DNA of 63,778 nt. It comes from a virus. Made by a program: the position numbers and the translations under genes. This document shows positions 6,096-48,790 of the stretch, one piece after another; position 1 is the stretch's first letter; each line of letters starts with the position of its first letter. The stretch lies in IMG/VR virus record IMGVR_UViG_3300036766_000471, positions 1 to 63,778 of that record. One strand, 5' to 3'. A model generated the notes under the pieces. That model saw only the letters and a list, made by a program, of their open reading frames with translations, searched no databases and was not told where the DNA came from.

Positions 6096-6124
6096 AAGGT
6101 ACACAAGAAACACAAGAGAGTCAA
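6096..6124 (-). promoter_or_regulatory. Promoter-like element upstream of the VWA-protein gene
   Basis: On the minus strand a -35 TTGACT (6124-6119) is followed after 17 bases by TACCTT (6101-6096), a weak -10. The 26 bases from 6100 to 6125 recur exactly at 7744-7769. The -35 overlaps the stop codon of the gene at 6121. The ATG of the VWA-protein gene is at 6075, with GGAAGGA before it. The exact repeat makes a regulatory role likely even though this -10 is poor. Confidence 0.55.
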
Positions 6125-6312
6125 GGACTCGTTTTCAGCAGGAAGAGCAGGTCTTCCCGCGCATCCAACACTGCCTGCCCGAGCGTCCAGCGGCAGTCCC
6201 CTGCGTTGTGCTCGTGCATCAAGGGCCCATGCGCCGGGTCGGCGCACTTGCGGCAACCCGGTACCTCAGCTGTCAGCAACGCCACCAAGTAGCTCAGCGT
6301 GGTCTTCGCCAT
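6121..6312 (-). CDS. Small Cys/His protein, unknown
   Basis: The 63-residue protein has CRKC near 20-23, HGPLMHEH near 28-35 and a further Cys at about 40, a possible zinc site. It starts three bases after the MoxR-type ATPase gene ends and precedes the promoter-like element of the VWA-protein gene. Position between the two suggests it belongs to the same module, but no function can be assigned. Confidence 0.65.
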   Translation of the reverse strand: MAKTTLSYLVALLTAEVPGCRKCADPAHGPLMHEHNAGDCRWTLGQAVLDAREDLLFLLKTSP

Positions 6313-6315
6313 GGG

Positions 6316-7470
6316 TCAGCTCTTCGGGGCGACAAAGCCCGCCACTTTGAGGATGGGGTGGAGCTTTGTGAGTCCTGCGTGCGCGTCCTTCGAGGTGATG
6401 AAGCCCCGCTTCGCGAGCACCATCCCTGCCTGCACCGTCACGTCGGCAGCGTCCTTGGAGATTTCCGCGATGTACCGCCAGAGGACATCGGAGCGGGTCT
6501 TCGCTTTGGACGTTTTGTCCGGGGCGATGATTGCTGCGCATGCCCCGAGGACCGCGGTCGTGCGATCGAGCCGCTTGGGGTCGTGCTTGAAGACCACCTT
6601 CTCGTCGAGCACCTCAACAGGGTCGGGGAGGTCTGAAGCGGTCTGGAACTGAATCAGCTCCGAAGCAGCTCCGATTCCCACGAAGGCCGCGACCAGCTCT
6701 TCAGCGTCGCTCGGTTCCAGCCCGTGGACTTCCGAACCCGCCAGCGCTCGGGTCGCCAGCTCCCACGTGCGGGGGGAGGGCCACGCGCGCCCAGCTTCGG
6801 GAGACTCCGCGATGGGCATCTTGAAGAGCAGGCTGGGGTTGGCTTTGAGGAACCCCGCCACGAGGCCCCGAGCCTTCGCCCATGCTTCCGGCCACTTCTT
6901 CAGCACCTCAGCTTCGAGGTCCGCCGCGTTCAGTGGAGCGCTGTCTTCCGACTCGCCGCCGAGCAGCCAGTTGGCCCATTCCGCCACCGAGGGAGGGTCC
7001 CAAGGCATGTGGCCGAAGCGGTTCGCGAGCGGTGGGCTCAGAGGCCAGCCACCCGCGGCTTCCTCCACCCGGTTCATCATCGCCACGATGCGCACCGTGG
7101 GAGGCATTTGGTACTCACCGACCGCGCCGTCTGTGGCGAGCCGCAAGAGCGCCGCCTGCATCGCTGGGACGTTGGTGTTCAGCTCATCGAGCACCACCAC
7201 CCCGTACTTCTTGTCGCCCAAGTTCTTCGCCCACGCTGCGGGCACGAGGCGGAAGCGATCGTCTTCGAGGCGCGCGAGGCCACCTACGTCCGTGGGCTCT
7301 CGGATGCTGCCGATGATGACCTCAGCGGCGAGGCCGAAGTGCGCGGCTTCGTTCTCCACCCGCTGCGTTTTTCCGTTGCCGGGGGGACCGATGAAAATCA
7401 TGGGGAGCCCCCAGCGCTTCTTCGGGCCCGGCGTGAACCACACAGTCTTCAGGATTCCTCGGACGTTCAT
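6316..7470 (-). CDS. MoxR-type AAA+ ATPase
   Basis: The 384-residue AAA+ ATPase has Walker A GPPGNGKT (28-35), Walker B VVVLDE (91-96), a sensor-1 Asn in AMMN (130-133) and an arginine-finger segment ANRF (149-152), the arrangement of the MoxR/dynein-related group. The C-terminal 180 residues are helical and carry the lid. MoxR ATPases form hexamers that work with VWA-domain partners to mature or remodel other proteins; the partner is encoded at 4720-6075. The start at 7470 gives an ATGA overlap with the upstream gene; an in-frame start 11 codons earlier is less likely. Confidence 0.92.
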   Translation of the reverse strand: MNVRGILKTVWFTPGPKKRWGLPMIFIGPPGNGKTQRVENEAAHFGLAAEVIIGSIREPTDVGGLARLEDDRFRLVPAAWAKNLGDKKYGVVVLDELNTNVPAMQAALLRLATDGAVGEYQMPPTVRIVAMMNRVEEAAGGWPLSPPLANRFGHMPWDPPSVAEWANWLLGGESEDSAPLNAADLEAEVLKKWPEAWAKARGLVAGFLKANPSLLFKMPIAESPEAGRAWPSPRTWELATRALAGSEVHGLEPSDAEELVAAFVGIGAASELIQFQTASDLPDPVEVLDEKVVFKHDPKRLDRTTAVLGACAAIIAPDKTSKAKTRSDVLWRYIAEISKDAADVTVQAGMVLAKRGFITSKDAHAGLTKLHPILKVAGFVAPKS

Positions 7471-7706
7471 CGGGCGCTCCCGGTTGCCACTGCGTTTGCC
7501 CACGCACGCTGCCCAAGCGGGGTTTTTGGGGTGAGGTCTTCGAGGCCCACCACGATGATGAAGCCCTCGGCGCTCTCATTCACGCACACGCGGACCTCGC
7601 CCTCGGCTTCGAGCCCTTCCTGTCGCTCCATCACATCCACGTTGAACGTGAGCGCTCTCCCGCTCTTCGTGGTCACCGTCAGCAACATCTGGTCTTGAAG
7701 TTCCAT
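7467..7706 (-). CDS. Small acidic protein of unknown function
   Basis: The 79-residue protein alternates short predicted strands and has no catalytic motif. It is the first gene of the MoxR/VWA unit: a promoter-like element lies 34 bases upstream and GGAGGCTGAAA precedes the ATG. Its stop overlaps the MoxR start as ATGA. The leader (SD plus about 25 upstream bases) closely resembles that of the gene at 7819-9036. Confidence 0.75.
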   Translation of the reverse strand: MELQDQMLLTVTTKSGRALTFNVDVMERQEGLEAEGEVRVCVNESAEGFIIVVGLEDLTPKTPLGQRAWANAVATGSAR

Positions 7707-7739: not shown

Positions 7740-7768
7740 ACTCTACACAAGAAACACAAGAGAGTCAA
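7740..7768 (-). promoter_or_regulatory. Promoter-like element upstream of the MoxR unit
   Basis: On the minus strand TTGACT (7768-7763) and TAGAGT (7745-7740) are separated by 17 bases, a reasonable sigma70-type promoter. The stretch 7744-7769 is identical over 26 bases to 6100-6125. The first gene start is at 7706, leaving a leader of about 25-30 bases with GGAGG as SD. Confidence 0.65.
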
Positions 7769-7794
7769 GAAATCAAATTTCGAGGAACTTCGGT

Positions 7795-13409: not shown

Positions 13410-13895
13410 CTACTCCCTCTCCAAAAAGTTGAGCAGCATCTCAGGCGAGGTGGTGCTGGGGGTCAATGCCTCGATGCCCGGCATCTTCGACAGCCCTAGC
13501 GCGGTGACCGCAATCTCCGAGCAGAACATCGCGTGGGAGTTCTGGAAGGGGTTGCGCGCCCGCTTCTTGAAGATGCGCGCCAGCAGCACCCAAGCCATGC
13601 CGATCAACCCGCTGAAGTCGTAGGCGGTGCCGAGCCACGTCGCAGCCCACTTGAGGCCGAGGTCGAGATTGATTGGCGGGGTGACAACAGCCACGACGCG
13701 GTTCTTCTTCTTGAACCGCTCGTAGGGCAGGAGGCGGAAGCCCAGCTCGTGCGCCTCCATCACCATGTCCATGTCGAAGTCCTTGTCGAAGTATAAAAAA
13801 GCGACGTGCGAGGCTCGGCTCTTAGTGAGCTTCCGAACGAGCCACGACACCGGGTTGAAGTGGCTTGGTGTCGAAAAAATTAGATGCGTTTGCAT
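13410..13895 (-). CDS. Papain-like cysteine hydrolase (NlpC/P60 or YiiX-type permuted)
   Basis: The 161-residue protein has SRASHVAFL (about 28-36) with a candidate catalytic His, an acidic residue-rich strand, and AMFCSEIAV (about 129-137) with a candidate catalytic Cys. His before Cys is the order of circularly permuted papain-like hydrolases (YiiX/C92 type), often found in phage tails and lysis regions, acting on cell-wall peptides or amides. The start at 13895 has GAGG seven bases upstream. Its first 20 codons duplicate, with many synonymous changes, the fragment at 14432-14488, separated by an HNH gene. Confidence 0.75.
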   Translation of the reverse strand: MQTHLIFSTPSHFNPVSWLVRKLTKSRASHVAFLYFDKDFDMDMVMEAHELGFRLLPYERFKKKNRVVAVVTPPINLDLGLKWAATWLGTAYDFSGLIGMAWVLLARIFKKRARNPFQNSHAMFCSEIAVTALGLSKMPGIEALTPSTTSPEMLLNFLERE

Positions 13896-14418
13896 GCGCA
13901 CGCCTCAAGTAGTGCGCCGCTCGTAGCAGCGTTTGAACATCGTCTTTCAGCAAACCAATGCCGCGGTTGCAGGGTCCGCACAGCAGTCCACGGACTGCTT
14001 TGGAACTGTGGTCGTGATCGACGTGCAGTTTGACAGCGTTGAAGCAGATTGCGCACTTGCTCTCCTGTGATGCCTCTAACGCCCGGAACTGTTGAATGGT
14101 GATACCGAACTCGCGTTGAAGCCTTTGCTCCAGCAGCTTGTCCGCATTCTTGACGCGCCATCTGTCTCGCTGCGCTTTGTACTTGTCCGGGTTGGCCTTG
14201 CGCCACTTCGCCGTCGCCTTCGCGCAGTAGGCGGCGTTTTTCTGATGCCACTTCCGCGCAGCGGCTCGTGTCGAATCCTCGTGCTGGCTTCGGTACTTCT
14301 GCCTGTACTTGCGAAGACAAGCGGTACACCACCCGCGCACGTAAATTTGGCCAGCCTCCCTTCTCAACTGAAACTCTGACGCCGCCTTGGTTTTCTTGCA
14401 CCGCGAACACGTTTTCAT
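13822..14418 (-). CDS. HNH endonuclease, recombination endonuclease VII-like
   Basis: The 198-residue protein has N-terminal Cys pairs (CSRC 4-7, CTAC 31-34), a long basic helix region and the endonuclease VII core: CAIC (122-125), VDHDH (133-137) and GLLCGPCNRGIGLL (144-157). It is a probable homing endonuclease. The frame continues 74 bases into the papain-like gene, so its last 20 or so residues are read from that gene in another frame. It interrupts the junction between the membrane-protein gene at 14485 and the papain-like gene, and is more A+T-rich than its neighbours. Confidence 0.9.
   Translation of the reverse strand: MKTCSRCKKTKAASEFQLRREAGQIYVRGWCTACLRKYRQKYRSQHEDSTRAAARKWHQKNAAYCAKATAKWRKANPDKYKAQRDRWRVKNADKLLEQRLQREFGITIQQFRALEASQESKCAICFNAVKLHVDHDHSSKAVRGLLCGPCNRGIGLLKDDVQTLLRAAHYLRRAHANASNFFDTKPLQPGVVARSEAH
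13842..13862. repeat. 21-bp direct repeat flanking the HNH gene (other copy 14438-14458)
   Basis: These 21 bases are identical to 14438-14458 and lie in the same frame of the papain-like coding sequence on both sides of the HNH insertion. They mark the conserved end of the duplicated 5' segment. Confidence 0.9.
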
Positions 14419-14431
14419 TCGCGGGAGTGTA

Positions 14432-14488
14432 CACCAACCACGACACCGGGTTGAAGTGTGTCGGCGTGGAGAACCCAAGGTGCGTCAC
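14432..14488 (-). pseudogene. Orphaned 5' fragment of the papain-like hydrolase gene
   Basis: From a GTG at 14488, coupled as GTGA to the membrane-protein stop, 19 codons encode THLGFSTPTHFNPVSWLV after the start. The intact gene at 13410-13895 encodes THLIFSTPSHFNPVSWLV. The frame then runs into unrelated HNH upstream sequence. This looks like the original start of the gene, cut off by the HNH insertion. Confidence 0.85.
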
Positions 14489-14796
14489 TTGCGTCTCCCA
14501 CCCCAGCGGTCGAGCGCAAGGTACATGCCGCAAACCCCAACCACGCACGTCAGCGGGTCGGAAATCCAAGCGTTCCACCAGCTCTCGGGGTTGAGCCACG
14601 TCTGCGGCCACAAGCGCTCCGCGAACCGCTCGAAAATCTCCCACGACACTGCGAGCGAGAGGCCCACCAGCAGCGTGAATCCATGCTTCACCTTGAGCGC
14701 CCAGCCGGTCGAACCCCACACCGTCCAGAAGCCGAGGTGTGGCACGGTCCACACGTCCACCAGCGAACGCCCCGTCTCTCCAACGAGCCAGCTCAT
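14485..14796 (-). CDS. Small membrane protein, unknown
   Basis: The 103-residue protein has two likely membrane segments (about 35-52 and 80-97) and Trp-rich connecting loops (DVWTVPHLGFW, NPESWWNAW). The motif order (proline-Trp N-terminus, helix with WEIFE, Asp-Pro before the last helix) recalls small integral membrane proteins found in phages and bacteria without known function. It lies in the fibre-lysis junction. Its stop overlaps the orphan papain-like start. Confidence 0.7.
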   Translation of the reverse strand: MSWLVGETGRSLVDVWTVPHLGFWTVWGSTGWALKVKHGFTLLVGLSLAVSWEIFERFAERLWPQTWLNPESWWNAWISDPLTCVVGVCGMYLALDRWGGRRK

Positions 14797-14797
14797 G

Positions 14798-15676
14798 TCA
14801 CGGTGCCTCGCTCAGGCAGTAGAAAGTCGCGGTCGCGTACCACCCGCCGAAGGGCACGTCATGCTGAAGGCGCAGGCGAATCTCCATGCCGTAGTCGGCG
14901 CGGAGCAGCGTGCTCGAAACGTAGTCCCAATCGAGCACGATGATGGGGCGTGGGCTGCCTCGCCAGCCGTTGCCCCCGAGCGCCGGGTACGTCGGGTACG
15001 ACTTCACCGCGTCGTTCTGGAAGTCCGACATCGCCTTGTAGACGACCGGGTTGCCGAGCGGGATTTTGGTGCCGGGCGGCAGTGGGCCGCCATTCGCTTG
15101 CAAGAGCTGCGGGGCGAACACGTCCACGAAGCCGTAGGGCTGAAACACCACCGAGTCCAGCAGCTCCACGTCGTCGGAGAAGTTGCACTCCGCGAACTCG
15201 ATTTTGAGCGCTTTCCCCGCGTCAGGCTTGAGCGTGAAGACGCTGGTGGTGGCGTAGTGGTACGTCACCTTCACCACGTCGTCGGGCTGGAGCGCTGAGA
15301 GGAACCCCACCTTGCCGGTGGGGTAGTTGACAGTGAAGTCGCCGCCGCTCGCAGGGTGCGGGTCTTGCTCCACCTTCGCCACGTCGTTGACCTTCACCGT
15401 GACGCGGTAGCTGTTGCCCCCAGCATCGAGCAGGAAGTCCTCCTGCGACACCTTGCCGTGGTACGTGTCGATGACGTTCCCGTGCGCCAACGAGTAGTCG
15501 GTATGCGCGCCATCGTCACTCGCCACTTCATCCACCACGCGCACAGACGCCTCTGCCCACGTCGTAGGGTCGGTCCAGTCATGCGACACGACCGTCTTCT
15601 TCGCCACGTCGCTCTTTTCCTGCGCGACGCGCTGCCGCCCATCGGAGGTGACGACTTCAAGGTGGCCGACGCTCAC
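14798..15676 (-). CDS. Virion-associated structural protein, unknown
   Basis: The 292-residue protein starts at GTG 15676, overlapping the stop of the upstream gene as GTGA. It is strand-rich with many Val/Tyr/Asp residues (GDFTVNYPTGKVGF and similar), typical of beta-structured tail appendages. The same frame is open through the 5' part of the upstream gene, which matters for the frameshift seen there. No enzyme motif is visible. Confidence 0.7.
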   Translation of the reverse strand: MSVGHLEVVTSDGRQRVAQEKSDVAKKTVVSHDWTDPTTWAEASVRVVDEVASDDGAHTDYSLAHGNVIDTYHGKVSQEDFLLDAGGNSYRVTVKVNDVAKVEQDPHPASGGDFTVNYPTGKVGFLSALQPDDVVKVTYHYATTSVFTLKPDAGKALKIEFAECNFSDDVELLDSVVFQPYGFVDVFAPQLLQANGGPLPPGTKIPLGNPVVYKAMSDFQNDAVKSYPTYPALGGNGWRGSPRPIIVLDWDYVSSTLLRADYGMEIRLRLQHDVPFGGWYATATFYCLSEAP

Positions 15677-23367: not shown

Positions 23368-24519
23368 TTAACGACGCAGAAACCCTTGGAACTGAATGTT
23401 GAAGGAAGCGGGCATCGTGCTGTTCGTCGTACCGTTGAGCTGGTGCACGATGAAGAAAGCAGCGACAGCAGCTGCTTGGAACTGAGAGAACAACAACGCC
23501 GGGCCACTGATGGTGGGATCGTTCAAAGCCGCCACGTCAGAAGCGTCCAGCTGAGAAGCGACCGAGCTTGCCGTGGCGATAGGGTAGAAGTCGGGGCCGA
23601 GCGCACCGGAAGCGGTCTGCGCCTGACAGGTGAATTTGCTGTTCGCGTCCAAGTCCCCGCCGATGACGTAGAAGCCGAGGTAGTCCTGTGCAGGTGGTGC
23701 CGCTTTTCGGCACACGACTTCGACACCGGGGGGCGCCACCAACTCCAGCAGGGAGGGTCCAAACGCGCCGGAAGGCACGTTGAACTGTGCAGAGACGTGC
23801 ATCAAGTTGTACGGGGCGAGCAAGCGCCGCGTGTCTCGAATCTCACCTCTGGTGAGGCTGGTGGTCGCCGGAGAGAGGCGCACCTCGGCGATTTTCATGT
23901 AGCCCGCTGTCACAGCCGGAGCGACAGGCGATGCTGCTTCTGCTCCGCGCTTGTACCCGACCGCGCCCGTGCTGAGCGCTGGGGTGAGCACGTTGCTCTG
24001 GCTCCCGTCGAGCGTGAACGCGAGGGACTTGTTCACGCTGTTGGAGACGAAAAGGCCCGAGATGGTGTCAAGCACGTCGCGGCTGAGGGGGTTCCCCACC
24101 ACCCGGTTCATGCGCACCTCGATGATGTCGATGCGCGGGTTGGTGACCGGCGCTGAGATGCCGGAGATGGTCATCTCGCTCAACAGCACGAGGGGCTTGT
24201 ACTCGGAGAGGTCATCCAGCCCACCGACACCGCCAATGGCGAAGTCGGTGTCAGCCGGAGGAAGGTCGAGGAAACCGATGCCGGGACGCAAACGCACCGA
24301 CATGCCGGGCACTGCCGAGGGAATGACCTGAAGCCCCGCCCCAACAACACCCGAAGCCACCAGCGCGCCGGGGTCAGTGTCAGAGACGCGCCCCGAGAAG
24401 AAGGTCATCAGCATGTCGCGCAAGGTGCGGTCAAGCTGCGCCTGCGCTTGGTTGATGTCGGACGACATCGGCCTTTCGCGAGCCGCAATGATGGTTCTGT
24501 CGAATGCTTTGTTTGCCAC
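23368..24519 (-). CDS. Baseplate/fibre-associated structural protein
   Basis: The 383-residue protein starts with a helical attachment-type N-terminus (KAFDRTIIAARERPMSSDINQAQAQL), followed by Gly/Ala/Pro-rich strands. The layout is that of phage appendage proteins that link the baseplate to fibres. The start is GTG at 24519 with a weak SD. The plus-strand HNH gene begins 38 bases beyond the start and may have separated it from its original promoter or upstream partner. Confidence 0.68.
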   Translation of the reverse strand: MANKAFDRTIIAARERPMSSDINQAQAQLDRTLRDMLMTFFSGRVSDTDPGALVASGVVGAGLQVIPSAVPGMSVRLRPGIGFLDLPPADTDFAIGGVGGLDDLSEYKPLVLLSEMTISGISAPVTNPRIDIIEVRMNRVVGNPLSRDVLDTISGLFVSNSVNKSLAFTLDGSQSNVLTPALSTGAVGYKRGAEAASPVAPAVTAGYMKIAEVRLSPATTSLTRGEIRDTRRLLAPYNLMHVSAQFNVPSGAFGPSLLELVAPPGVEVVCRKAAPPAQDYLGFYVIGGDLDANSKFTCQAQTASGALGPDFYPIATASSVASQLDASDVAALNDPTISGPALLFSQFQAAAVAAFFIVHQLNGTTNSTMPASFNIQFQGFLRR

Positions 24520-24557: not shown

Positions 24558-25133
24558 ATGAACCGAGAGGAAAGACGAGTCGCAGGGCTGTGCGGGCGTT
24601 GTGGGGGCCAACCTGTACCGGGGCGCACGCAGTGCGTTCGTTGCTTAGCCTACGCTGTAACGGCAACGCAAAAGCACCAAGAAAAAAGTCGCATGGCCGG
24701 GAAGTGCGGCTGCGGCAACCAACGAGATACCGACAGCAAACTCTGTCGAACCTGTCGTGGCACCCGCGAGCGCTCGTGGCAAAAAACCAAAAAATTCCGC
24801 TTGCAGCAAAAGCTGTGTGTTGGGTGTGGTGAGCACCCATCCCGCGCAGGAAAACGAACCTGCGCGGAATGCTCTCTGCGGCGAGTGCAGCACGGGCACA
24901 AAAAGTTGGGTGTTTCCCCAGAGGACTTTCAACGCCGCTTCGCTGAACAGCAAGGACTGTGCGCCATCTGCGAACTTCCGATGAAAGCCCCGTGTCAGGA
25001 CCACAACCACGAGACAAAGCAGATACGAGATCTACTCTGTCACCGCTGCAACCGCGTGCTTGGCCTCGGTAAGGAATCACCATTCCTGTTCCGTGCACTG
25101 GCAGCTTATGTGGAGCGCTGGTCTTCACGATGA
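24558..25133 (+). CDS. HNH endonuclease, endonuclease VII-like, Cys-rich N-terminus
   Basis: The 191-residue protein has five Cys-x-x-Cys-type knuckles in the first 105 residues (GLCGRC, CVRC, CGCG, CRTC, CVGC, CAEC), then the endonuclease VII core: CAIC (135-138), QDHNHET (147-153) and LLCHRCNRVLGL (159-170). It is a probable homing endonuclease, inserted head-on into the minus-strand fibre operon and ending 3 bases before the baseplate-J gene's stop. I chose the Met at 24558; an in-frame start at 24504 would overlap the neighbour. Its A+T content is visibly higher. Confidence 0.88.
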   Translation: MNREERRVAGLCGRCGGQPVPGRTQCVRCLAYAVTATQKHQEKSRMAGKCGCGNQRDTDSKLCRTCRGTRERSWQKTKKFRLQQKLCVGCGEHPSRAGKRTCAECSLRRVQHGHKKLGVSPEDFQRRFAEQQGLCAICELPMKAPCQDHNHETKQIRDLLCHRCNRVLGLGKESPFLFRALAAYVERWSSR

Positions 25134-25136
25134 CTT

Positions 25137-26525
25137 TCACTGACCCTCAAGCTCCACAACCGCAGCGGTGCCAGCAGCTTTGATGTTCTGGAGCGTGTCA
25201 TACAGCGTTTTCATCACCGTGGCGCGAGCCACGTCGTACCCGTCCCAACAGCCGAGCAGGTACCCGAAGCTCTCGGTCGTGAAGTTTTGCGACCACGTGG
25301 GGACAATGGAAGTGAGCCGCCACACCGTTCCGTCATCCAACTGCACCGCGTACTTCCCGATGTCCGCGGTGATCACGGAAGCAGTCGTGCGTGCCAGCGC
25401 GTTCGCGTAAGGCCCCAGCTCATACACCAGCTCCGCGTCCCACGCTCCCACTGCTCGGCTTCCGTAGGGGTTGGAGAGCTGCGTGGCGTTGACCGCGGTG
25501 TCGTCGTAGGCCACCCCGTAGTCGGTCAACGGGCCAAACGCGGGCACCACGACGATGAACGCCCCACGCATCTCGCTCTCGTCGAGCCAGCGTGCGCGGA
25601 AAGGGGAGGGGCTCCGCGGGTCGTCGTAGCAGAGCAAGTCCGGGTCGTAGGGGCTGCCCGGAATCGAATCCGCAGGCCCGTCCCAGCAGGTGACGTAGCC
25701 CAGCTCAAACGTCTCGATGAAGTCGTAGGAGAGGTTGTACGGCAACAGGAGCTGCTGAAGCGCACGGTCCACTGCATTCGGGCTGATGTTGTCCGGCAGC
25801 GCCCGCACCCGCCCGCGGTAGGTGTCGTCCGTCTCGCTGACGCCGCGAAAAATCAGGCGGTCGATGCCGTGCTGGTCAAGCGCCGGGTCCACGCCGCCCG
25901 TGGTCGCGATGGGGTGCCGCACCCGGAAGGTCACGTCGCCCACCGGAGGGTCCTCTACCAGCGTGACGATGGTGTCGATTTCCCCTTCGAGGCTCGTGCC
26001 GTCTGCGGTCACCACGATGCCCGGCTCGTTGTAGTTGTACCCCTGAAGCAGTGCTTCAACTGGCACCGTGAAGGGACCTAAATCGCTCGGGGCAAAAACA
26101 GCGTTCGCCGTGGTGACGTAGCGCCGTCCACCCTTGCTCGATTTCACCACCGTGCCCGCGAGGATGGTGACCGGGATGCCTTCCGCGTTCGGTGTCGGGC
26201 GGTAGAACTCGATCGAGCCTGTGGCCTTGGCTCCCCCGGTGGAAGAGAGGATGAACGCGCCGCAGGCGTACCGCGCCACCGCTTGCGACAGGCGCGCACC
26301 CATCGCCGCGGCGGCCTGAAGCACCTCGTAGCCGGGCCCTGTTTCCTTCAGCGGAGCAAGGTAGTGCTGCGGCAGGAGGCGCTCGAACAAATCGAGCAGG
26401 TCCTGCTGGGTGAACGCTTCGATAGAGCAAGGAAGGAACGGTGCCGCTGTGCTCGTGCTCTCAGGCTGTGCACCGCCGCGCGCAGGCAGCGGGGAAATCA
26501 GAGTCCATGCGAGCGGGAGAGGCAT
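25137..26525 (-). CDS. Baseplate J-like wedge protein (copy 1)
   Basis: The 462-residue protein has the fold pattern of the P2 gpJ/T4 gp6-like baseplate family: SIEFYRPTPNAEGIPVTILAGTVV (split: a strand pair before an 'IP-x-G-T' turn near 105-125), ITxxG positions and the 'DRLIFRGVSETDDTYRGRV' segment (near 215). Wedge proteins form the ring that holds the baseplate and triggers contraction. It is more divergent than the copy at 31431 and has an extended C-terminus that may be specific to this phage. Confidence 0.78.
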   Translation of the reverse strand: MPLPLAWTLISPLPARGGAQPESTSTAAPFLPCSIEAFTQQDLLDLFERLLPQHYLAPLKETGPGYEVLQAAAAMGARLSQAVARYACGAFILSSTGGAKATGSIEFYRPTPNAEGIPVTILAGTVVKSSKGGRRYVTTANAVFAPSDLGPFTVPVEALLQGYNYNEPGIVVTADGTSLEGEIDTIVTLVEDPPVGDVTFRVRHPIATTGGVDPALDQHGIDRLIFRGVSETDDTYRGRVRALPDNISPNAVDRALQQLLLPYNLSYDFIETFELGYVTCWDGPADSIPGSPYDPDLLCYDDPRSPSPFRARWLDESEMRGAFIVVVPAFGPLTDYGVAYDDTAVNATQLSNPYGSRAVGAWDAELVYELGPYANALARTTASVITADIGKYAVQLDDGTVWRLTSIVPTWSQNFTTESFGYLLGCWDGYDVARATVMKTLYDTLQNIKAAGTAAVVELEGQ

Positions 26526-47389: not shown

Positions 47390-48790
47390 TTACTCGCCGT
47401 GCTCCACAATCACAGCGCGCTTGAAGTACGCCGCGTCGCCAGTCGCACCGTCAGTGCGCACAGGCCAGTCGCCGATGAACTTCCACGAGCTGGACACCAT
47501 GTCCTGCAAGCGGTTCAGCGGGGCTCGGATGATGAGCTGGATGCGCTCGGTGAACACGTCGATGCCGTTGTTGGTGATGCGCGGCTCGGCGAGCTTGCCG
47601 GTGATGCCTGCCTCGGTGACGAGGTTGGCGAGGTCGAGGTGGTACTCCATGATTTGCCCCTGACCCGTGAACATCGGACGGTGCACGCGAACACCCGTGG
47701 TCACGCCCGTGTTGAACAGTTCACCCGCGAAGTTGTCGTCCTGCGAGTACGTCGCAGTCAGACCGCCCGTCACCGTCTCCGGCAGGGGGCTCTCGGTGTT
47801 CCGAATGAAGATGGTCCCGAGCAGCACACCGATGCCGAACTGCTTGTACATGTAGTAGTCCGGCATGGACGTGAGCAGGCGCTGGAACTCGGCGTCCGCG
47901 AAGATCTGGCTCTCCGAGGTCGGGTCCATGTGGCAGTGGAAGTACCCGTCCTGATGCTCGGGCACGTTCATGCTGCGCATGCGGGCGCACGCCGCCCGGA
48001 TGTCGGCGAGCCGGAACAGGTCCGAGCTGCCCACGTCGTCCACCTTGAAGCCGCCACCCACGCGCACCAGCGAGGTGCGGGTGTCCGCAATCACGTAGTC
48101 GCGATCGACCACGCTGATGGCAGCACCGTCGAGGGTGATGGTGCCGGGACCGACCTCATCCCCCGCCACGTCCGCGGCGAAGCCGATGACGTTCCGGCTC
48201 AGCTGCGAGCCCGCGAAAATCTTGATGGGGAGCGGGTTGCTGGGGGACACAGCGAGGTACTGCACCGCCGAACCCGCCACGAGGTCCGGGCGCCGGGCCT
48301 TGGTGAAGCCGTTGAGGCGCTTCACGCGAATGGTGTTGGTCGGGCCCTGAGCACCGTCCGCCACGGTCCACCCCGACAGACCGGCGTTGTACAGCCGGTT
48401 GCGGGTGATGCCGTTCAGCGACTGCCCCGCCTGCAAGCCCAGCTGCTGGGCGTTGCGGTAGAACAGGTTCGCGATGGCGACGATCGCGGTCGGCATGTGG
48501 GTGTCGATCGAGCTGGCGTACTGCTGCGCGACCGCTTCCCACTGCTCCGCGCTGAAGCTCTGCGGAACGGGGTCGTTGCCGGGGACCAGCGGCTTCTGCT
48601 GCTTCGGCAGCAGCCCGGTGCCGGTGAAAATCTGCCGGTCGCCGATGTTGGCGGGCCAGAGCACCGGGGTTGCTTCACCGCGGTACAGCAGCCGGGGGAA
48701 CAGCGAGTCGTGGAACGCTCGTTCGAGAATTCCGTCCTGCACCAACGCCCGAATCTCGGGCGACTGGGCGATTACTGAGAAGTCAGGCAT
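47390..48790 (-). CDS. Major capsid protein
   Basis: The 466-residue protein has an N-terminal helix, then the HK97-like body: 'FHCHMDPTSESQIFADAEFQRLLT' (split around 280-305), 'GIGVLLGTIFIRNTESP' (about 318-334) and a C-terminal 'LQDMVSSSWKFIGDWPVRTDG' strand. These recall the N4 gp56/P22-coat-type capsid groups. It follows the scaffold gene, as expected. SD AAGGAAG precedes the ATG. Capsid identity is strong by context; the exact subfamily is not decided. Confidence 0.87.
   Translation of the reverse strand: MPDFSVIAQSPEIRALVQDGILERAFHDSLFPRLLYRGEATPVLWPANIGDRQIFTGTGLLPKQQKPLVPGNDPVPQSFSAEQWEAVAQQYASSIDTHMPTAIVAIANLFYRNAQQLGLQAGQSLNGITRNRLYNAGLSGWTVADGAQGPTNTIRVKRLNGFTKARRPDLVAGSAVQYLAVSPSNPLPIKIFAGSQLSRNVIGFAADVAGDEVGPGTITLDGAAISVVDRDYVIADTRTSLVRVGGGFKVDDVGSSDLFRLADIRAACARMRSMNVPEHQDGYFHCHMDPTSESQIFADAEFQRLLTSMPDYYMYKQFGIGVLLGTIFIRNTESPLPETVTGGLTATYSQDDNFAGELFNTGVTTGVRVHRPMFTGQGQIMEYHLDLANLVTEAGITGKLAEPRITNNGIDVFTERIQLIIRAPLNRLQDMVSSSWKFIGDWPVRTDGATGDAAYFKRAVIVEHGE

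Follow-up and report, generated by a model that had tools for sequence, protein, structure and literature searches.

In the virus analysed here, a free-standing Endonuclease VII-type homing endonuclease gene has probably entered the 5' part of a papain-like hydrolase gene by way of one-sided repair, bringing with it a diverged homologue of the 5' end that it interrupted. The whole stretch of DNA examined (63,778 nucleotides, IMG/VR record IMGVR_UViG_3300036766_000471) is referred to as the window, and the locus is known from this single metagenomic contig. The hydrolase gene was found to have two 5' ends, at 14488 and 13895, the positions given by the original prediction, which was made from the sequence alone. 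On the minus strand the gene order is the upstream gene (15676-14798), a membrane-protein gene (14796-14485), an orphan GTG start (14488), the HNH gene (14418-13822) and the hydrolase gene (13895-13410). The features of the locus are as follows:

14798..15676, minus strand: structural-type gene upstream, a marker of the locus in relatives (L117-L119 were found through it, with the hydrolase directly following it)
14485..14796, minus strand: small membrane-protein gene, its stop overlapping the orphan GTG (GTGA); it directly precedes the hydrolase in L121 and L132
14432..14488, minus strand: orphan hydrolase 5' end, resident-like, 19 codons (VTHLGFSTPTHFNPVSWLV), with GFS as in 11/11 relatives and TTG GTG as in L122
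14438..14458, minus strand: 21-bp identical block, orphan copy (exact repeat)
13880..14488, minus strand: reading frame that continues from the orphan start, 203 codons with the stop counted, unbroken across the HNH gene (0 stops against 6.1 expected in the HNH part)
13836..14431, minus strand: insert of 596 bp, consisting of a 13-bp leader, the HNH gene and the diverged 5'-end copy; joined flanks as in L122, GC 56.5%
13822..14418, minus strand: Endonuclease VII-type HNH gene, 198 aa (PF02945, E 5e-20), with catalytic and zinc residues
13836..13895, minus strand: functional 5' end of 20 codons, diverged and low in GC3
13842..13862, minus strand: 21-bp identical block, functional copy (exact repeat)
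13410..13895, minus strand: intact papain-like (YiiX-type) hydrolase gene, 161 aa (phrog_1128, E 6e-15; family profile matching 3kw0 and YiiX 2if6)

The orphan GTG is coupled to the membrane-protein gene, the overlap with its stop being visible in the GTGA, and its frame enters the HNH insert after 19 codons. The intact gene restarts at ATG 13895, encoding MQTHLIFSTPSHFNPVSWLV, with nearly the same residues as the orphan. All of this had been predicted and was borne out, as was the claim that the two ends differ mainly at synonymous positions: among the 18 aligned codons (14/54 nucleotides different), eight are identical, eight differ synonymously and two non-synonymously. The 21 identical bases that had been described are an exact repeat; they do not mark the end of the homology, which continues for two codons beyond the block (orphan TTG GTG, functional copy CTC GTT). 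A self-search of the record with the hydrolase matched only the two 5'-end sites (E 2e-6 for the orphan). Two occurrences of the degenerate pattern FSTPxxFNPVSW were found in the window (0.00 expected), and just 5 of 2.9 million viral contigs carry it, once each. By chance, ~5e-5 exact 21-mer pairs would be expected at such closeness. Identity between the two ends is concentrated in this block, the remaining synonymous difference being saturated (permutation p 0.013). Both ends share THL and xHFNPVSWLV, which occur in no relative, and are therefore each other's closest kin.

Relatives with no HNH gene at the site and a single uninterrupted hydrolase start, which the prediction had called for, were identified at eleven loci (L117, L118, L119, L121, L122, L124, L125, L126, L129, L132 and L133); in 11/11, no HNH gene lies inside the hydrolase or immediately upstream of it. 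L117-L119 were recovered via the upstream gene and the other eight via hydrolase profile and pattern searches. The hydrolase alone as query gave no matches in the viral and genome collections, and a search with the peptide pattern of the 21-bp block returned only the unrelated contig L040. A second 5' copy, which in HNH-less relatives would have spoken against the proposed arrival of the nuclease gene with a copy of its target's 5' end, was sought in the eleven relatives and none carries one. The membrane-protein gene is joined to the hydrolase by an ATGA overlap in L121 and likewise overlaps it in L132, the same layout as the orphan GTGA at 14488. None of the HNH-less relatives is near-identical to the window phage, the best being 66% identical in protein.

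The space between the membrane-protein gene and the hydrolase is variable, holding a gene of 160 aa in L122, a receiver-domain gene in L129 and nothing in L121 and L132; in L117-L119 the upstream gene and the hydrolase had no visible membrane gene between them. The 57.7-kb record of L126 (G061) encodes six Endonuclease VII-type genes, one of which directly overlaps the 3' end of the hydrolase. Viral contigs contain 76 relatives of the window's major capsid protein (47390-48790, minus strand), at 56-92% identity. The hydrolase was not detectable in 50 records of capsid-sharing phages that were searched, and these phages are consequently unusable as empty sites. Judged by sequence, the window genome is mosaic.

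Comparison with L122 places the borders of the insert. Joining its flanks regenerates TGGTTGGTGCGGAAG, an exact match to the intact L122 gene, and the orphan flank ...TGGTTGGTG followed by CGGAAG... is identical to L122 over 15 bp across the junction, at the same place. The insert therefore comprises 14431-13836 (596 bp) and follows codon 19. The stop codon of the HNH gene (13822-13824) lies beyond it, in resident hydrolase DNA, and the C-terminal ~24 residues of the HNH protein are read out of frame through the 5' copy. A target-site duplication with both borders inside the 21-bp block was ruled out, as the TTG GTG that follows the block in the orphan is exactly that of L122. A group I intron or intein found no support: the window has no Rfam match above the gathering score, the HNH frame differs from that of both hydrolase ends, and the host 5' end is duplicated.

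The orphan looks like the resident end of the gene, and the 5' end in use looks diverged and foreign. The glycine before Phe-Ser (Gly6; GFS) is present in 11/11 relatives and in the orphan, and is isoleucine (IFS) in the functional copy. Over the 21 nt upstream of the block the orphan matches L122 at 16/21 positions and the functional copy at 9/21; over the 6 nt after it the values are 6/6 and 3/6. With L132 as the reference, orphan and copy score equally upstream of the block. The foreign appearance of the functional end follows from base composition: the G+C content of the insert is 56.5%, where the window averages 63.8%, and is lower than in 98% of 596-bp window stretches, and GC3 of the functional copy is 0.3 in the first ten codons against ~0.9 in the remainder of the gene. 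No donor with an IFS-type 5' end was found among the phage loci recovered. These comparisons indicate that the break in the resident gene lies after codon 19 and that the HNH gene came with a diverged homologous 5' end, and the original interpretation is thus supported in part.

The HNH protein belongs to the Recombination endonuclease VII family, the PF02945 match covering residues 97-172 of 198, so that the catalytic domain is C-terminal. Its motif is complete (C122/C125, D134 H135 D136 H137, R143, C147/C150, N151). Homing endonucleases with the Endonuclease VII motif (DHHRN) are known in phages, F-CphI being an example (PMC6083498). The window protein resembles F-CphI in the identical spacing of D, H, R and N (offsets 0, 1, 9, 17) and in two CX2C pairs, and F-CphI of cyanophage S-PM2 is likewise a free-standing phage Endonuclease VII-type nuclease with a C-terminal catalytic domain (PMC6083498). 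In contrast, the catalytic domain of T4 Endonuclease VII is N-terminal. A second Endonuclease VII-type HNH gene (24903-25115, plus strand) lies in the window between minus-strand genes 23368-24519 and 25137-26525; no duplicated gene end was found flanking it.

The target is tentatively assigned to the papain-like hydrolases from its phrog_1128 match and from its family profile, which matches cysteine peptidase 3kw0 (E 1e-5) and YiiX (2if6, E 0.008). S29-H30 and C125-S126-E127 are invariant; a permuted papain-like hydrolase of YiiX type would be expected to have a histidine in the N-terminal half and a cysteine in the C-terminal half. Foldseek analysis of the AlphaFold model (built from ten relatives; mean pLDDT 83) gave no significant PDB match, and the assignment is thus sequence-based. 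The model predicts a first strand at residues 4-10 and a first helix at residues 15-24, so that the 19 orphan codons would encode part of the structural core; it is unlikely, on this model, that the gene would have stayed functional with no replacement 5' end. At about codons 40-50 the window hydrolase is identical to L122 at 30/30 nt, the two preceding 10-codon blocks matching at 16-17/30, and a recent exchange is possible there.

The same architecture was identified at an unrelated ATPase gene (L136/L152) in G054, a 168-kb record that also holds L132. It was found by scanning the flanks of other Endonuclease VII genes (L152:447-2516; G054:C1:76500-80500):

L152:447-530: orphan 5' end of the ATPase gene, encoding MSNVGQEKTVQGENYWDRCVMPRITPYE
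L152:567-1205, strand opposite to the ATPase: Endonuclease VII-type HNH gene
L152, start at 1233: intact ATPase gene (phrog_1297), beginning MSNTAQNSVATTESYWDKYGIPRVTLHE

The HNH proteins of G054 and the window are 28% identical. The ATPase of a further record, G052, is 80% identical overall to that of G054, and the G054 orphan matches it at 56/84 nt and the G054 functional 5' end at 48/84, making the latter the least conserved stretch of the ATPase (other blocks, 51-67). The copy in G054 differs at all codon positions. In G052 (L138:1429-1910) an HNH gene of the same family lies ~28 bp upstream of the intact ATPase, with no orphan 5' end visible at that gene, a layout that would be expected of a donor. 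In the first survey the repeat score was 90 for the window and at most 48 for other Endonuclease VII loci; high scores in L142, L147 and L172 came from low-complexity, out-of-frame matches and were removed by a complexity filter or by eye. No further case of orphan, HNH gene and copy was found in ~40 viral-contig and 19 GenBank phage Endonuclease VII loci (~60). On these sequences, the layout is rare but recurrent (two cases). The window's own ATPase (6316-7503) was considered as close kin of the G054 protein and is not closely related to it. An exact 26-bp repeat (6100-6125 and 7744-7769) lies on both sides of that window gene; on the minus strand it begins CTTGACTCTCTTGTGTTTCTTGTG and is promoter-like.

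The following sequence of events is proposed. A donor phage would have carried the HNH gene directly upstream of its own hydrolase copy, and the enzyme would have cut an HNH-less hydrolase gene after codon 19. Homology with the donor gene would have allowed repair of the downstream break end, with synthesis running back across the donor 5' end and then the HNH gene. The upstream break end would have been joined without homology (illegitimately), and the stranded resident 5' end would now show where the cut was made. The product would read resident 5' end, insert with the HNH gene, donor 5' end and gene body. We infer the cutting, the one-sided repair, the donor layout and the copy's escape from cutting from the arrangement of these sequences. 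The model does not predict the 21-bp identical block and offers no explanation of it; the block may be a small patch of conversion between the two ends after insertion, or may be due to chance.

Other histories were weighed against this one. The 5' end could have been duplicated within the phage, for example by break-induced amplification, with the HNH gene landing between the copies later and the functional copy then diverging. Such an order would suit the THL and xHFNPVSWLV residues that both ends share to the exclusion of relatives, as well as the identical block, and segmental duplication caused by a homing endonuclease is known from T6 (PMC13096335). It is nevertheless unlikely, since its expectation is reversed: the unused end keeps the glycine and native GC3, and nearly all changes, together with a foreign composition, are in the copy that is in use. 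Furthermore, a tandem 5' duplication lacking the HNH gene occurs in none of the relatives, and in G054 the association recurs at a different gene, where the divergence is far larger. The copy had also been described as recoded. In one such history, the 5' end began as a duplicate of the resident one and synonymous changes were selected that destroyed the recognition site. Eight of the ten differing codons are indeed synonymous, and the two codons where the cut is inferred read CTC GTT instead of TTG GTG, a pattern that drift between homologues also explains. The 21 bp beside the inferred cut are unchanged, however, and the two amino-acid changes, including loss of the invariant glycine, and the low GC3 point to a foreign origin. 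In G054 the copy differs broadly and not at synonymous sites alone. Escape from cleavage by recoding is therefore quite improbable, and the recoded copy of the original prediction is better understood as a foreign homologue.

A non-homing role for the HNH protein, as a resolvase or nickase that travelled along in ordinary mosaic recombination with one illegitimate junction, is also improbable. Relatives of Endonuclease VII do include resolvases (PMC6083498), phage genomes are mosaic, and other unrelated genes occupy the region between membrane gene and hydrolase in L122 and L129. Against this, the C-terminal catalytic domain and the D-H-R-N spacing are those of the homing enzyme F-CphI, and both known instances of the layout include an Endonuclease VII gene. 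The length of the 21-bp repeat is that of a k-mer, as an assembly chimera of two strains joined at the repeat might show; yet a false join at either block would still require a strain with the HNH gene followed by a second 5' end, and the independent G054 contig has the same layout, which leaves a chimera highly improbable.

The orphan frame runs open across the HNH gene to a stop at 13882-13880, whose first base lies 13 nt beyond the A of the new ATG (13895). Synonymous shuffles of the HNH gene gave 6.1 stops on average in this frame, against none observed (p 0.0001). In the same frame of 39 other window genes, 190 stops were counted against 251 expected; as window genes generally run below expectation, a conservative p is ~0.01. 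This is suggestive of an overprinted leader coupling translation of the hydrolase to the membrane-protein gene. In G054, where the HNH gene is reversed, the frame continuing from the orphan ends 38 codons beyond the homology. A broader and rather doubtful reading is that Endonuclease VII-type homing cassettes of this phage group form a class that moves as nuclease plus spare target 5' end, the stranded end recording the exact cut site, and that in the window the orphan frame might be kept open as an overprinted leader, with ribosomes from the membrane gene terminating and re-initiating at the new start.

Mobile ORFs of fungal mitochondria make gene hybrids, as described for Allomyces atp6 and for Glomus atp6, atp9, cox2 and nad3, and the duplicated ends have low nucleotide and high protein identity, for which a foreign donor has been proposed (PMC3630166). 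The same source describes an endonuclease ORF with a diverged substitute end, a stranded resident end and largely synonymous differences, as in the window; in the cases described there, however, the 3' (C-terminal) end of mitochondrial genes is replaced and the enzymes are LAGLIDADG or GIY-YIG, whereas here it is the 5' end, in phages, with an Endonuclease VII-type HNH enzyme. By analogy, the window element would work like these ORFs, without being a member of them. F-CphI differs in being described as acting on psbA, and a transplanted target 5' end is not recorded in the available part of that source (PMC6083498). Free-standing HNH genes also interrupt phage genes that can still be expressed in the T4-type systems mobE/nrdA (Aeh1) and mobA/gene 60, where two polypeptides or ribosomal bypass result, unlike the single full-length gene rebuilt here with a replacement end (PMC2988022, PMC5009743). 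SegB of T6 is likewise a homing endonuclease associated with duplicated phage DNA, although it is tandem amplification of whole segments that occurs there and a diverged partial gene end that is seen in the window (PMC13096335). A search of the openly accessible literature gave no description of a phage endonuclease replacing the 5' end of a gene, a result that does not prove its absence.

The two phage cases would thus extend the end-replacement strategy of fungal mitochondria to phages and to 5' ends. A selfish nuclease that lands within a coding gene would be expected to disappear when its host dies, a loss that a replacement gene end avoids without splicing, and such an end permits insertion of the element in conserved coding sequence. 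The last codon of the orphan would also predict the position of the nuclease cut, allowing candidate cleavage sites to be listed from sequence.
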